The position numbers and the translations under genes were made by a program. Below, in pieces: positions 4,098-9,623 of a stretch of 64,000 nt of DNA. Within the stretch, counting starts at the first letter, position 1; the number at the start of each line of letters is the position of its first letter. Source of the DNA: Dehalogenimonas sp. WBC-2 (GTDB taxonomy: Bacteria > Chloroflexota > Dehalococcoidia > Dehalococcoidales > Dehalococcoidaceae); NCBI GenBank assembly GCA_001005265.1, contig CP011392.1, forward strand, positions 62,001-126,000, given 5' to 3'. The notes below the pieces were generated by a model. That model made no database searches and was not told the origin of the DNA. It saw only the letters and a list, made by a program, of their open reading frames with translations.

Positions 4098-4943
4098 TCA
4101 AATCATGGAAAGCAGGGCTAACAGGCCGTAACCGAGGGCTGCGGCCACCGTCAGTGGCGGTAGCGCCGCCGTCGGGCCGCCTTTGAAAAACACTTTCTGC
4201 ACCCAATAGACAGAGAGCAGCCCCGCCAGCAGGAAGGTAGCCATGACCGCTGCTGCCCCGATACCCCCGGCCGCCAGCACCGAGACCATTATAATCAGTG
4301 AAAAGCCGATATCGCCGCCGCCCAGCAGAGAAACCGTTTTTTCTTCCGGCTCATCCAGCTTGATGTCAGTGATGGACATTTGCCAACCCCCGGCAGCCAT
4401 GGGATAAACAAAGGCAGGCACGATGTTAACACCGGAAAGTTTAGTGACCATCCACATCATATGACCAGAGCGCACCGATACCAGGTCATAAACTGAAACG
4501 ACCGCCATCAGACCTAAGGCCAAGCCTGGCGAGAGTAGGAAACCGAAAACTGAGGCATAGCCGACTAGCGCCAACCCGAGGAGCAGATTGTGCAGCCACA
4601 AACGTGGCCAGCGCAACCAAGCCAGGGCTGCGGCTGCGGCGACCAGCGCCGCCACAATCACTGGTAGCGGCAGCGCCAGAATAACGAACACTCCCCAGGC
4701 ATACAGAGTCATGAAAAGAGCCTTGGTGATGAATTTCAGGATTTTTAGGGGCAGAAATGCCAGCGCCAGCCCAATTAAAATTACGGCTGCAAAGAAATAT
4801 GCCAACGGCAGCCCCGCCGTTACTTCCGGTATGGGGATTCCCTCATCTTCAATGAAACGCAACTGTCTGCTTGCGACCACGATGGCCAAAATTTCACTGA
4901 TGATAAGGGTCAAAAGGCTCCAGTGGGCCGGTTTTAGACGCAT
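4098..4943 (-). CDS. Presenilin-like (A22/DUF1119) intramembrane aspartyl protease
   Basis: A 281-residue, strongly hydrophobic protein with about nine membrane segments. The two catalytic Asp motifs of GxGD proteases are visible: YD at residues 152-153 within VSVYDLVSV, and GGGD at 208-211 within SLLGGGDIGFSL. A C-terminal LPPL at 261-264, preceded by Ala, occupies the place of the PAL motif. This matches the presenilin/signal-peptide-peptidase superfamily known from eukaryotes and archaea and less often from bacteria. Such enzymes cut transmembrane helices within the membrane. Substrates are unknown here. It is convergent with the GIDE-LemA gene, with the stop codons touching. Confidence 0.82.
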   Translation of the reverse strand: MRLKPAHWSLLTLIISEILAIVVASRQLRFIEDEGIPIPEVTAGLPLAYFFAAVILIGLALAFLPLKILKFITKALFMTLYAWGVFVILALPLPVIVAALVAAAAALAWLRWPRLWLHNLLLGLALVGYASVFGFLLSPGLALGLMAVVSVYDLVSVRSGHMMWMVTKLSGVNIVPAFVYPMAAGGWQMSITDIKLDEPEEKTVSLLGGGDIGFSLIIMVSVLAAGGIGAAAVMATFLLAGLLSVYWVQKVFFKGGPTAALPPLTVAAALGYGLLALLSMI

Positions 4944-5070: not shown

Positions 5071-8000
5071 ATGGTCATTTCAGATGCCAGAACCTCCAGG
5101 CACCGGCAAGCAGTGCCCCATATCAGAGGCGCGCTGGTGCGCCGCCGCCTGCTGGACAGACTTCATTCCAACCTGGGTTATCATTTTCAGGTGATTAAAT
5201 GCCCGGCTGGGTACGGTAAGACTACTCTCCTGGCTGACTTTGCCAGAGAAGTGGAAGCGCCGGTCTGCTGGTACAATGTTTCCGACGCCGACCGGGATCC
5301 ATTTAGTCTTTATGAAGGGTTGGTGCAGGCGGTCGATAAGGCTTTCCCCGGAGTTGCCTTGCCTGGACGAAGGCTGGCAGATGGCAAAGTAAACGCCTTA
5401 GCAGTTGCCATCGGGGATTTGCTGAGTCAAATACCAGACTATTTTGTTTTAGTTATTGAAGACCTGCATATCCTGGCTCAAAGCCCTTCCGGTGAACTGA
5501 TTGACCGCCTGGCAGAAGTATGGCCTGATAACGGTCATCTGGTGGTATCGACGCGCCAACTTGATAGTTTTGACCGGATCAATGACCATATTGAAAGGCA
5601 GCAAGCCGCCTGTCTTGTCGTTGCGGACTTGATGTTTACGCCTGATGAGGTCAAGCAGCTGGCCAAGGAGCGCCACGGTATTGATATTGATGACGCCGAT
5701 GCCTGCCGGTTGACTGAAACACTTGATAGCTGGCCCTTAGGTATCTCGCTGGTGTTGAATTCACCCGATGGTCTAAATACCATGCACACCGTGGGCCGCG
5801 GCCATATCTTTGATTTTTTAACCCGTCAGGTTTTAAAGCAGCAATCTGTGATGACGCAAAAACTGTTATTGGGATTATCCACCTTCCTGTTTATTGAGCC
5901 CGACCTGTGCGCTGAGGTGCTGGAGGTTCCCAATTTCAGAAAGAAGTTGCGGCAACTACTGGAAAGTAATCTTTTCATCGCCGAAACCGGGCCGGAAATT
6001 TACAAATACCATCAACTCTTCCGTGACTTTCTACAAACAACTCTTAAAGAAAAAGACACTGAGCTTTTCTACTCATTGCATAACAAAGCGGCGGTAAAAT
6101 TCGAAGCTGAAAGCAGACCCGAGACGGCTATCGAGCATTTTATTGCCAGCCGTAATTATGATGAAGCGGCACGGTTGATTCTGGGTATTAGCGACAAACT
6201 GCTGCGGCAGGGGCGATGGACCAGCGTGGTTAACTGGATAGAACGGCTGCCAGATAGCATCCAGAGCGGCACGGTGGATATGGTACTCCTTTACGCTCAG
6301 TGCCTGGTTCATACCGGTGAACCGGCCAAGGCCGGCGGGATCATCACGGCTATCATTTTAAATGAAGCTAAACCTCTTGACCGGGTCACCAAAGCCAGGG
6401 CGCTTTTTACCAGGAGCAGTGCCTGCCGCCTATTAGGACAACGTGACCAATCCCGTCTGGATGCGGAACAAGCGGCAACCTTGCTGGGTAGTAGTGAGAT
6501 TCACAAGGGCTTGATGGGTGAAATCAACGCAAGACTTGGACACCTTCATTTTGATAAAAGTGAGTTCGCTCAGGCGTTGCAGTATTTTCAGAAAGCCAGG
6601 GAACTCTTTACTGCTGTTTTTGATGTAGACAATCTGGCCTTCGTTAATAATACGCTTGGCGGTATTTATAAGAACTATGGCGACCTGGGACAGGCGTCCA
6701 CTTATTATGAATATGCCCGTCAGGGGTTCATAAAAAACGGGAACCGCGGCAATCTTTCCATGGCCTTAAGCAATATTGCCTATATACAACACAAACATGG
6801 CATGCATGAACTGGTTTTACAGACACTCACTGAAGCCCGTGATAACGCCCGGGCTGTGGGATACTGCCGGATTGAGTCCATTATCGCGTTAGCTTTCGGC
6901 GAAGTATACCGTGATTTGGGGACATGTGACAAATCACTGGATTCTTTTCAGGAAGCATTGAGTCTTGCAAGACAGTCTCAAGAGGCAAATTATATCGCTT
7001 ATGCCAAAGCCGGTCTGGGGGAAACATACCGAATAATCGGGAACCTAGGGAAAGCGGCGTATTGGACAGAGGAAGCGCTTGCTCAGGCGCAAACGGAAAA
7101 GCAACCATATGAAATCGCACTGTTTAAAATGCAACTGGCAATGATCGACCACGGCAATAATAAGTCGGATGAAGCGGTAATATTATTGACTGAAGTGTAT
7201 AAAAAACTACTCTTAATCGGTGATCGGGATGCTCTAGCCCGATGTTGCTTTGCGGCTGCTATAGCCAGTTTTTCCCAAAAGAATTATGAGTCTGCGGTGA
7301 GATGGCTGGGTTGGATGCTCGGACATATTGAAAACTTGGGCTATGATGATTTTGCGGTAATTGAAGGTGGTCGAAATCCTCTTCTGGTGCAGTATGCCGC
7401 TGCCAAGGAAATAGGCGGGCATTACTTTGAGCGTTTGATGGAACGTATCAAAGCAAAAAGGCAATTGCTACTATCGGTCAAAGAGCAGACGCCCACAGAA
7501 GTCCGCCTTACGCGGTTGCAGGGTTTCGGCTTCAATGATTCGAAGGTTGTTCTCGACGGCCAAGTGGTGAATGAGAGTGCCTGGCGTTCCAACCGGGCCA
7601 AAGAGTTGTTCTTCTTCCTGTTGAATAACCCCGGGAAATCAGCCGAGGAGATTGCCTGCCAACTCTGGCCGGAATTGCCGCCGGCTAAATCAGCTAGTAA
7701 TTTTCACATCAACCTGTTCCGCGCCCGCCGAGCCACCTCACCAGGGATTATCATTTCGGAAAATGGCCGTTACTATTTTAGCCCTGAAGTGGAATTCTGG
7801 TATGACGTCACAGAATTTGAGGTACAACTCCGAGAGATCAGCCGCCTGGCACCTGAAGAGAGAACACTGGTTACCGAAAAGGTGATAGATTTGTACAAAG
7901 GGGCGTTGCTGCCGGGCTTTGACAGCGAATGGGTGGATGAGAAACGGTGCGAACTGGAGAATAAGTACCTTAAACTGCTCTTTACCATGGTAGGTCAATA

Positions 8001-8229
8001 TGCTAAAAAGGGAGACATGTCCAAGGTAGTGAATCTGGTGGAAAAGGTGCTGGATACCAATACTGATGATGATGAAGTCTACTATCAAGGCATTCAGGCC
8101 TATCTGGCGTTAGGAGATTCTCTATCGGCGTCTCATTTGTATAAACGTTATCTGGTTAATCTAAAAGAAATTGATGCTGCGCCTGACCCGCGCATTGAAT
8201 CTCTCATAGGACACCTGTCAATCAATTGA
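5071..8229 (+). CDS. MalT-like STAND ATPase regulator with TPR array and C-terminal wHTH-BTAD domain
   Basis: A 1052-residue cytoplasmic regulator. The N-terminus resembles the NTPase module of MalT/LuxR-type STAND proteins: a Walker A loop CPAGYGKTT with Lys50, and VIEDLH near residue 131 as a Walker B-like segment. A winged-helix-like region lies around residues 250-340. Residues about 370-780 are helical repeats of TPR character (for example ALQYFQKARELF, ASTYYEYARQGF). From residue 811 there is an OmpR-type winged helix (RSNRAKELFFFLLNNPGKS) followed by a BTAD domain (YDVTEFEVQL, LYKGALLPGF), as in SARP regulators, replacing the LuxR helix-turn-helix of MalT. Such proteins are switched by ligands that bind the TPR part. 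A terminator follows at 8258, then a gene for an exported micro-peptide. Confidence 0.88.
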   Translation: MVISDARTSRHRQAVPHIRGALVRRRLLDRLHSNLGYHFQVIKCPAGYGKTTLLADFAREVEAPVCWYNVSDADRDPFSLYEGLVQAVDKAFPGVALPGRRLADGKVNALAVAIGDLLSQIPDYFVLVIEDLHILAQSPSGELIDRLAEVWPDNGHLVVSTRQLDSFDRINDHIERQQAACLVVADLMFTPDEVKQLAKERHGIDIDDADACRLTETLDSWPLGISLVLNSPDGLNTMHTVGRGHIFDFLTRQVLKQQSVMTQKLLLGLSTFLFIEPDLCAEVLEVPNFRKKLRQLLESNLFIAETGPEIYKYHQLFRDFLQTTLKEKDTELFYSLHNKAAVKFEAESRPETAIEHFIASRNYDEAARLILGISDKLLRQGRWTSVVNWIERLPDSIQSGTVDMVLLYAQCLVHTGEPAKAGGIITAIILNEAKPLDRVTKARALFTRSSACRLLGQRDQSRLDAEQAATLLGSSEIHKGLMGEINARLGHLHFDKSEFAQALQYFQKARELFTAVFDVDNLAFVNNTLGGIYKNYGDLGQASTYYEYARQGFIKNGNRGNLSMALSNIAYIQHKHGMHELVLQTLTEARDNARAVGYCRIESIIALAFGEVYRDLGTCDKSLDSFQEALSLARQSQEANYIAYAKAGLGETYRIIGNLGKAAYWTEEALAQAQTEKQPYEIALFKMQLAMIDHGNNKSDEAVILLTEVYKKLLLIGDRDALARCCFAAAIASFSQKNYESAVRWLGWMLGHIENLGYDDFAVIEGGRNPLLVQYAAAKEIGGHYFERLMERIKAKRQLLLSVKEQTPTEVRLTRLQGFGFNDSKVVLDGQVVNESAWRSNRAKELFFFLLNNPGKSAEEIACQLWPELPPAKSASNFHINLFRARRATSPGIIISENGRYYFSPEVEFWYDVTEFEVQLREISRLAPEERTLVTEKVIDLYKGALLPGFDSEWVDEKRCELENKYLKLLFTMVGQYAKKGDMSKVVNLVEKVLDTNTDDDEVYYQGIQAYLALGDSLSASHLYKRYLVNLKEIDAAPDPRIESLIGHLSIN

Positions 8230-8257
8230 CACAAGAGCAACTTCTGCTGTTAAACCG

Positions 8258-8279
8258 GGTGGCGAAAGCCGCCTTTTTT
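8258..8279 (+). terminator. Rho-independent terminator after the BTAD regulator
   Basis: Six-base-pair stem GGTGGC/GCCGCC (one G-U pair) closed by a GAAA tetraloop and followed by six T residues. It lies 28 bases after the stop codon and separates the regulator from the micro-peptide gene, which therefore needs its own promoter. Confidence 0.8.
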
Positions 8280-8282
8280 ATT

Positions 8283-8317
8283 TGGTAAGAATCTGGTAAG
8301 AGGTCTTCCGTTATCAT
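8283..8317 (+). promoter_or_regulatory. Direct repeats with 11-bp period and candidate -10 box before the micro-peptide gene
   Basis: TGGTAAGA occurs at 8283-8290 and again at 8294-8301, exactly 11 bases apart, so both copies face the same side of the helix. A TATCAT hexamer at 8312-8317, 10 bases after the second repeat, would serve as -10 box. SARP/OmpR-type winged-helix regulators are known to bind heptamer-like direct repeats with 11-bp spacing close to the -10 box, and such a regulator is encoded immediately upstream. The regulatory link is inferred. Confidence 0.55.
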
Positions 8318-8346
8318 TGGGTAAATTCAATAAAGGAGTTGCTGCA

Positions 8347-8457
8347 ATGAAAATGAAAACCGCCCTGAGGACTATCTTGGTTGTCACTGTTGTCTCTATC
8401 GCCACTGTTTTATCCGCCATTCCAGTTGCTGCTTGGCCTGTAGCCACTGGTCCGTAA
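8347..8457 (+). CDS. Sec-exported micro-peptide (36 residues), candidate signal peptide precursor
   Basis: Small open frame with a strong ribosome binding site (AAGGAG at 8333-8338) before the ATG. The product has a charged start (MKMK), a hydrophobic core (TILVVTVVSIATVLSAI) and a signal-peptidase-like site PVAA, leaving a very short C-terminal end WPVATGP. Almost the whole protein is therefore an export signal. The order TPR regulator gene followed by a tiny exported peptide gene resembles RRNPP-type regulator/peptide pairs of Firmicutes, although the regulator here is a different, MalT/SARP-like family. Family membership could not be recognised. An alternative is a small membrane-spanning peptide or a leader peptide. 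Confidence 0.6.
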   Translation: MKMKTALRTILVVTVVSIATVLSAIPVAAWPVATGP

Positions 8458-8474: not shown

Positions 8475-8511
8475 GGGGGCTCCGAGGTAAAAGATGGTAT
8501 TCGGAGCCCCC
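8475..8511 (+). promoter_or_regulatory. 11-bp perfect hairpin over the start region of the receiver gene
   Basis: Arms GGGGGCTCCGA (8475-8485) and its exact complement (8501-8511) flank a 15-base loop. The only plausible Shine-Dalgarno (AGGAGG at 8471-8476) borders the left arm and the ATG at 8494 lies in the loop. The hairpin could control translation of the receiver gene, or act as a terminator of the micro-peptide transcript, although only a weak T-run (four T) follows. Confidence 0.6.
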
Positions 8512-8976
8512 GGACCAATTTTGAAAAACCCTGATAAATCACTATCACTTGGGGGGTTGTTGGAAGAGTTACTGCAAGGACAAAGACCGCGACTGCTGGT
8601 CGTGGAAGATGAACCGCATGTCGGGGAAATTTGTCTGCGCGTTTTGGGCCGTGAAGGCTTTGACGTGGAGATAGCCGCAAATGGCCATATAGGGTTGGGT
8701 TTTGTTATTCAATATGATTATGATTTTTGCCTGCTGGATATTAGAACCCCAGGCATGAGTGGCAAAGAACTCTATAAGTGGCTGCTTGAAAACCGGACGG
8801 AGCTAGCCAGCAGAGTGATATTTACCACCGGTGATATTATGGCTCAGGACCTGTTGGCATTTATCAAGCATACCGGTCGTCCCTTCCTGCCGAAGCCGTT
8901 TTCACCAGATGAACTGGTGAAAATAGTGAAGGAGACCTGGAAAGAGATTATCAGCAGGCCAGTTAATGCCCAGTAG
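8494..8976 (+). CDS. Stand-alone response-regulator receiver protein
   Basis: A CheY-like receiver domain starts at about residue 32 (RPRLLVVEDEPHVGE). The phospho-acceptor Asp is in CLLDIRTPGMSG, the conserved Thr in VIFTTGD, and the Lys in FLPKPFSPDEL. There is no output domain. No histidine kinase gene is adjacent. The 31 residues before the domain have no receiver homology, so translation may really begin at one of two adjacent TTG codons at 8557 or 8560, just after a G-rich stretch; the ATG at 8494 sits in a hairpin loop. A terminator follows at 9069. Confidence 0.85.
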   Translation: MVFGAPGPILKNPDKSLSLGGLLEELLQGQRPRLLVVEDEPHVGEICLRVLGREGFDVEIAANGHIGLGFVIQYDYDFCLLDIRTPGMSGKELYKWLLENRTELASRVIFTTGDIMAQDLLAFIKHTGRPFLPKPFSPDELVKIVKETWKEIISRPVNAQ

Positions 8977-9189: not shown

Positions 9190-9408
9190 TCAAGGGTTGG
9201 GTGCGCTTTGTTCTTCGACAATGAGTCGGTGTACTTTTAACTCATCAATATTTAAATTTTTTATCACGGCTCGGTTGACAGCCAATCGTCCAATTGCCAA
9301 TGCCCCGATGGCGATAGCCCCTACAGCCAAAGCTCCAAATGCAACAGATCCGATGGTTAAAGCTCCCACCTTTCTGTGAACAATTGGAAGATACTTTTGA
9401 TCAGCCAT
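9190..9408 (-). CDS. Small pentapeptide-repeat-like protein
   Basis: A 72-residue product read from the ATG at 9408, which has AGGGAGGG a few bases upstream. Residues about 17-60 show a strict period of five: GSVAF, GALAV, GAIAI, GALAI, GRLAV, NRAVI, KNLNI, DELKV, HRLIV. Hydrophobic residues always occupy positions three and five and small residues the first places. This is the pattern of a right-handed quadrilateral beta-helix (pentapeptide-repeat fold), though it departs from the A(D/N)LXX consensus. The Gly/Ala-rich section could instead be read as a membrane helix, but the periodicity continues into charged repeats. Function unknown; no operon partner. Confidence 0.6.
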   Translation of the reverse strand: MADQKYLPIVHRKVGALTIGSVAFGALAVGAIAIGALAIGRLAVNRAVIKNLNIDELKVHRLIVEEQSAPNP

Positions 9409-9623
9409 TTCGCCCTCCCTATTTTTCATCCTGACTAATGATAGCAGGGAAAACTTACAACCTAAAAGACATGACATTCGGGAGGTATTTTCACTTGGGG
9501 CTCTGGGTCAACGTAGGGAAGTAAACATTCTAACAAAAGGTTAAATCCGGCAACAACGCGAAAACAGCGAGTCAATGTCTTCACACCGTTCATTTTGCAC
9601 ACCCAACGGCGATTTTAGCTTTG

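Follow-up and report, generated by a model that had tools for sequence, protein, structure and literature searches.

In the window (the whole stretch of 64,000 nucleotides of Dehalogenimonas sp. WBC-2 analysed here), the gene for a large regulator is followed after 117 nt by a short ORF, which starts with ATG and encodes the 36-residue peptide MKMKTALRTILVVTVVSIATVLSAIPVAAWPVATGP, and then by the gene for a receiver protein (Table 1). The genome, a single 1.73-Mb contig, has one copy of the peptide gene. Both the ORF and its ribosome binding site are as originally predicted. The peptide is signal-like by a simple rule and is probably exported by Sec; as read from the sequence, cleavage would fall after an AxA-type site and leave a short C-terminal tail. 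Two further ORFs of the window lie on the reverse strand. The first (4098-4943) encodes a hydrophobic membrane protein of 281 aa, whose YD and GGGD motifs look presenilin-like by eye, and adjoins the regulator gene both here and in the relative G006. We dropped a link between this protein and the regulator-peptide cassette, as genus mates lacking the regulator also have it, at another place, and it has no Pfam name. The second (9190-9477) encodes 95 residues with GALAVGAIAIGALAIG-type repeats and has no Pfam match.

Table 1. Features of the regulator-peptide locus, in window coordinates
Feature	Position	Strand	Basis or remark
Regulator, 1052 aa	5071..8229	+	Pfam, PDB profile matches to MalT and AfsR, AF2 model
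Regulator STAND NTPase, residues 23-328	about 5137-6054	+	
Regulator TPR superhelix, residues 330-780	about 6058-7410	+	
Regulator OmpR-type winged helix, residues 814-911	about 7510-7803	+	
Regulator BTAD, residues 912-1047	about 7804-8211	+	
Terminator-like hairpin with T tail, between regulator gene and operator	8257..8274	+	
Operator TTGGTAAGAATCTGGTAAGA, 11-bp direct repeat, GGTAAG cores 8284-8289 and 8295-8300	8282..8301	+	sole match in window, 0.04 expected
-10 box TATCAT, fixed distance from operator	8312..8317	+	TAnnnT, same spacing, 41 aligned loci
Ribosome binding site AAGGAG	8333..8338	+	sequence; 8 nt upstream of ATG
Pre-peptide gene, 36 aa, Sec-type signal and short tail	8347..8457	+	conserved in relatives; pS 0.65 vs pN 0.15 against G006
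Predicted mature tail WPVATGP, after AxA-type site VAA	8434..8454	+	inferred from sequence; same place in relatives
Strong hairpin behind peptide gene, without T run	8475..8511	+	-26.8 kcal/mol, z -4.6; similar hairpins in G006, G005, G007
Response-regulator receiver protein, start TTG 8557/8560 or ATG 8494	8557..8976	+	Pfam 8e-19; similar gene in G006, G011

The regulator has Pfam matches to TPR_12 (4.7e-19) and, at its C-terminus, to BTAD (1.9e-8). When a profile of its orthologues was compared with the PDB, it matched MalT (8bob) over positions 15-396 (6e-53) and the SARP part of AfsR over positions 847-1053 (3e-20), bearing out the earlier description of a TPR-bearing STAND protein of MalT/SARP type. 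An OmpR-type winged helix followed by BTAD is indicated by the BTAD match in Pfam, the AfsR profile match and the structural model; by these domains and by its operator the regulator is a SARP, but its domains stand in the order seen in MalT. The AF2 model (mean pLDDT 82, pTM 0.52, with 7 sequences in the input) contains a confident TPR superhelix at residues 330-780. Its top fold match is domain III of MalT (1hz4, Z 34.0, 3.1 A, 362 aa), followed by complexes of Rap with Phr (8rsv, Z 31.2, 4.4 A, 351 aa; 4i9c, Z 29.9; 4gyo, Z 28.8); NprR scores Z 26-27, and unrelated TPR proteins also reach Z 25-31. The match list is filled by TPR chains and the comparison thus bears only on residues 333-780, where the modelled fold is compatible with peptide binding and no proof of it. 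The A helices form the concave side of a TPR array, and by our assignment of A and B helices the conserved charged or amide residues of this region (R448, R453, E484, 567-568, R600, 611 and 681) lie in A helices.

Searching the whole genomes of relatives, we recovered complete or almost complete orthologues in G006, G049, G011 and G024. The regulators of G005 (L030:5492-7663) and G007 (L031:5604-7733), short forms of 709-723 aa, lack the STAND NTPase and keep the TPR part, the SARP module, the operator and the peptide. Counting the window, a Sec-type mini-peptide gene occupies the same place behind 7/7 of these close regulators, and in genus mates lacking the regulator no credible match to the peptide was seen; one match, in G001, is interrupted by stops and was discarded as chance. 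In a scan of genome contigs, a single regulator as query found no match and an alignment-based query found 5 loci. We searched a profile of the 7 regulators against 393 genomes from the class and 400 from the phylum, and applied to the downstream DNA a rule for mini-ORFs (24-60 aa, a ribosome binding site, a charged start, an uncharged hydrophobic core and a short tail, within 450 nt) that was written after part of the class set had been seen and then frozen for the other classes. Such ORFs stand behind 51 of the 72 class homologues with readable downstream DNA (dinucleotide shuffles 0.2/72, reverse strand 0) and, under the frozen rule, behind 14/21 homologues from other classes of the phylum (shuffles 0.06, reverse strand 0), counts taken over sampled genomes, many of them MAGs, whose sequences share ancestry and are not independent events. 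None of the 20 STAND-TPR relatives used as controls, 19 of which have, by eye, a LuxR-type end, has one (Fisher p 3e-9), and at the ends of other ORFs in the window and five neighbourhoods the rule matched once apart from the peptides themselves. By the rule the mini-ORF is absent in 21/72 class homologues, including most of family f54; in a few of these (L073, L075, L077) a peptide lies farther downstream. The pairing of a peptide gene with this type of regulator is thus constant, and the predicted gene order, a TPR regulator followed by a small Sec-type ORF in the manner of RRNPP systems, recurs over the phylum.

The peptides have no match in Pfam or NCBIfam. Between the window and G006 they are 67% identical, and over pooled independent pairs pS is 0.41 and pN 0.09. 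The peptide gene is therefore real and constrained at the protein level; the original prediction had named two observations that would speak against it, no small ORF in relatives and no selection on the protein, and neither was made, the peptide being conserved with synonymous change exceeding non-synonymous. The tails of the 7 close members read WPVATGP in the window, WPVGTCP, GPFPTMP, GPIATLP, SGADGFGP, GPDIFGP (G011) and GGAPNCFNP. Farther afield the predicted tails are clade-specific and kept within clades: AAQSP[LF]F, GQSAFI, AEVI[YW]xx, ADDGLDP and AGAAP[FYVI]QSW, with longer, Gly-rich tails like GAPxxGGxxR in family f123. Among the AGAAP peptides (n=19), positions -9 to -5 do not vary, and within the tail variation is greatest at position -4. 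Some loci have cassettes in tandem, one (L076) with QSPFF and QSPLF tails, another (L064) with two identical copies. Behind one regulator (L150:4700-4850, reversed) a small ORF beginning MTYKQIEDPTSGGSGG has no signal and is possibly a leaderless variant.

The peptide gene had been predicted to have its own promoter. A promoter is present, but a pattern scan upstream of the gene found none of plain sigma-70 type; it is instead of activator type, with a 22-bp direct-repeat operator replacing the -35 box. From regulator stop to peptide start, a direct repeat of at least 8/10 occurs at lag 11 in 40/51 loci, as against at most 6 for any other lag from 5 to 30, and across 41 loci the TAnnnT of the -10 box stands at a fixed spacing (T 0.78, A 0.80, T 0.78). 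In SARP operators the repeats are 11 bp apart and the 3' repeat lies 8 bp from the -10 box (PMC10936776), and the sequence here has both spacings. The operator varies with the recognition helix found in the regulator next to it, HIN occurring with GGTAAGA, HSN with [CG]G[CT]GAGA, HTT with TGGT[CG]AGAG and FKN with TTGAAGCC at lag 12. This co-variation, although it runs along the phylogeny as well, is the best sign that the operator is read by the regulator, and it strongly suggests that the regulator binds there and activates the peptide gene. In family f123 (L145-L147, L151-L156) the lag of the TTGAAGCC repeat is 12, not 11.

Across the genome the operator points to a set of putative targets. 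With up to 2 mismatches there are 6 operator-like sites, against 0 for a reversed control pattern and about 0.07 expected by our simple count, and TAnnnT stands at the same spacing beside 6/6 of them. The operator site is found in 7/7 genomes with the regulator vs 6/54 without it. Besides the peptide gene, one predicted target is a GlmS-like SIS/GATase gene, behind which lie genes for a UDP-sugar dehydrogenase and an oxidoreductase of the GFO/IDH/MocA type. The others are a hybrid histidine kinase of periplasmic-binding type, an operon with CBM96 for exported proteins, a small membrane protein and the pair PtuA/PtuB of a Septu system (PADLOC 9e-153 and 7e-63). The Septu pair (L179:1372-3424, about 355871-357923 of contig C1 of this genome) has the operator-like site and a -10 box upstream, raising the possibility of peptide-controlled phage defence. 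Predicted targets in relatives include the GlmS-like gene again (G006) and a GHMP kinase gene with genes of sugar-nucleotide type (G024). In two relatives (L030:7961-8299 in G005 and L031:8071-8385 in G007), a protein of about 105 aa encoded behind the peptide gene looks RadC-N-like by eye and has no Pfam match; a RadC-like gene also lies behind an operator-like site in G059 (L043).

We propose that the two genes form an autoinducing cassette, in which the regulator activates the peptide gene and the tail returns as an autoinducer bound by the TPR part, and give this reading a probability of roughly two in three. Basal transcription would yield the pre-peptide, Sec would export it and signal peptidase would release a C-terminal tail of 5-8 residues, here WPVATGP. 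The tail would re-enter the cell, probably by a permease of Opp/Dpp type, and bind in the concave groove of the TPR array, whereupon the SARP domain would be freed or activated. In AfsR the NOD and TPR parts inhibit the SARP domain until ATP binds (PMC10936776), and a switch of this kind is therefore plausible for the regulator. On the 11-bp direct-repeat operator, in place of a -35 box, the activated regulator would recruit RNA polymerase in the SARP manner and close a positive loop by turning on the peptide gene; promoters with the same operator, those of surface-sugar genes, exported proteins, the sensor kinase and the Septu defence pair, would be switched on alongside. Processing, import and TPR binding of the tail are suggested by analogy and by the model. 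Of the signalling pair originally proposed, the regulator-peptide pair stands on its recurrence and on the operator between the genes, whereas the signalling is a matter of interpretation.

The peptide might instead be an output of the regulator. As in AfsR/afsS, the regulator would sense a nucleotide state, a metabolite or phosphorylation, and the small gene would be its main target, with a product acting at the membrane or outside as a small membrane protein, a bacteriocin-like peptide or a surface peptide. The operator does mark the peptide gene as a regulator target, and afsS, a small gene of the adjacent type, is driven by AfsR through the same kind of repeat without its product being a ligand of AfsR (PMC10936776). 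Several observations count against the peptide as ligand: domain III of MalT, which binds a sugar, matches the fold more closely than Rap does, and the scores of unrelated TPR proteins come near; the mini-ORF is missing by rule in about 21/72 homologues; and Opp/Dpp proteins, represented by SBP_bac_5 proteins in all genomes tested, occur in genomes without the regulator too. We nevertheless think an output role rather unlikely, as the peptide neighbour is constant over the phylum while the other predicted targets vary, the predicted tails are only 5-8 residues long, clade-specific and variable mainly at single positions, and the modelled TPR fold is near that of the peptide-binding Rap proteins. 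Far less probable is a nascent-chain sensor, a leader that stalls at its C-terminus, reports the state of secretion and controls the downstream gene via the hairpin. All tails of the Dehalococcoidales-like group do have Pro before the stop, a strong hairpin follows the ORF, and exported leaders acting in this way are known (PMC9973294), but elsewhere the tails end in W, F, I, L, R or other residues, the downstream gene is not constant, and the tandem copies and constant upstream regulator would be left unexplained. That the ORF, short and outside any Pfam or NCBIfam family, is a chance reading frame beside the regulator is refuted by conservation, selection, shuffles and controls.

An autoinducing cassette of this kind would resemble three known systems. 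RRNPP systems rely on a TPR regulator in the cytoplasm and a short peptide that is exported (PMC10075063, PMC9765709). Like RRNPP(A) systems (Rap-Phr, NprR-NprX, PlcR-PapR, Rgg-SHP, PrgX, AimR), the cassette has a TPR-protein gene adjoining a short Sec-type pre-peptide gene, whose 36-aa product is within the range of 10-100 aa used for adjacent genes and whose C-terminal residues would be the signal; tandem variant peptides and a modelled TPR fold matching the Rap-Phr complexes are further likenesses. However, its receptor has 1052 aa, as against 250-500 aa in RRNPP, and bears an N-terminal STAND NTPase and a C-terminal winged helix with BTAD in place of the N-terminal HTH or 3-helix bundle; moreover it occurs in Chloroflexota, not Firmicutes, and has a SARP-type operator on the peptide promoter. 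The cassette is thus no RRNPP member by receptor size and N-terminal domain, and by analogy RRNPP-like in working. To our knowledge, searches for RRNPP systems have so far covered only Firmicutes and small receptors with an HTH. With AfsR-AfsS of Streptomyces the regulator shares winged helix and BTAD, STAND/NOD and TPR parts, 11-bp direct repeats 8 bp from the -10 box and a small gene as target, but its SARP module is C-terminal, not N-terminal, and its small gene codes for an export signal and a tail that varies; we know of no description of AfsS as an exported ligand. It shares the order of STAND and TPR with MalT-type regulators, and has the SARP module where MalT has a C-terminal LuxR-type HTH; regulators of that kind in the control set lack the adjacent peptide gene. 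By descent and architecture the cassettes would be a separate family. The open-access literature searched yielded no description joining a STAND-TPR-SARP regulator with an exported peptide, in agreement with the original remark that the combination was not known as described.

The recurring pair with its changing tails across Chloroflexota suggests a hitherto undescribed family of peptide signalling, comparable to the quorum sensing of Bacillus and its relatives. On balance we favour an independently evolved, phylum-wide peptide quorum-sensing family with STAND-TPR-SARP receptors and exported autoinducers of 5-8 residues, its DNA-binding part unrelated to that of RRNPP; its regulon in this genome would comprise genes for surface sugars, exported proteins, a sensor kinase and the Septu pair. 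Should the tails be signals, the Chloroflexota, organohalide-respiring bacteria among them, would have a peptide language of their own that can be read from the genome, with tail, operator and regulon each predictable. If true, this would also assign a class of ligands to the TPR sensor domains in STAND regulators of SARP type, few of whose signals are known.
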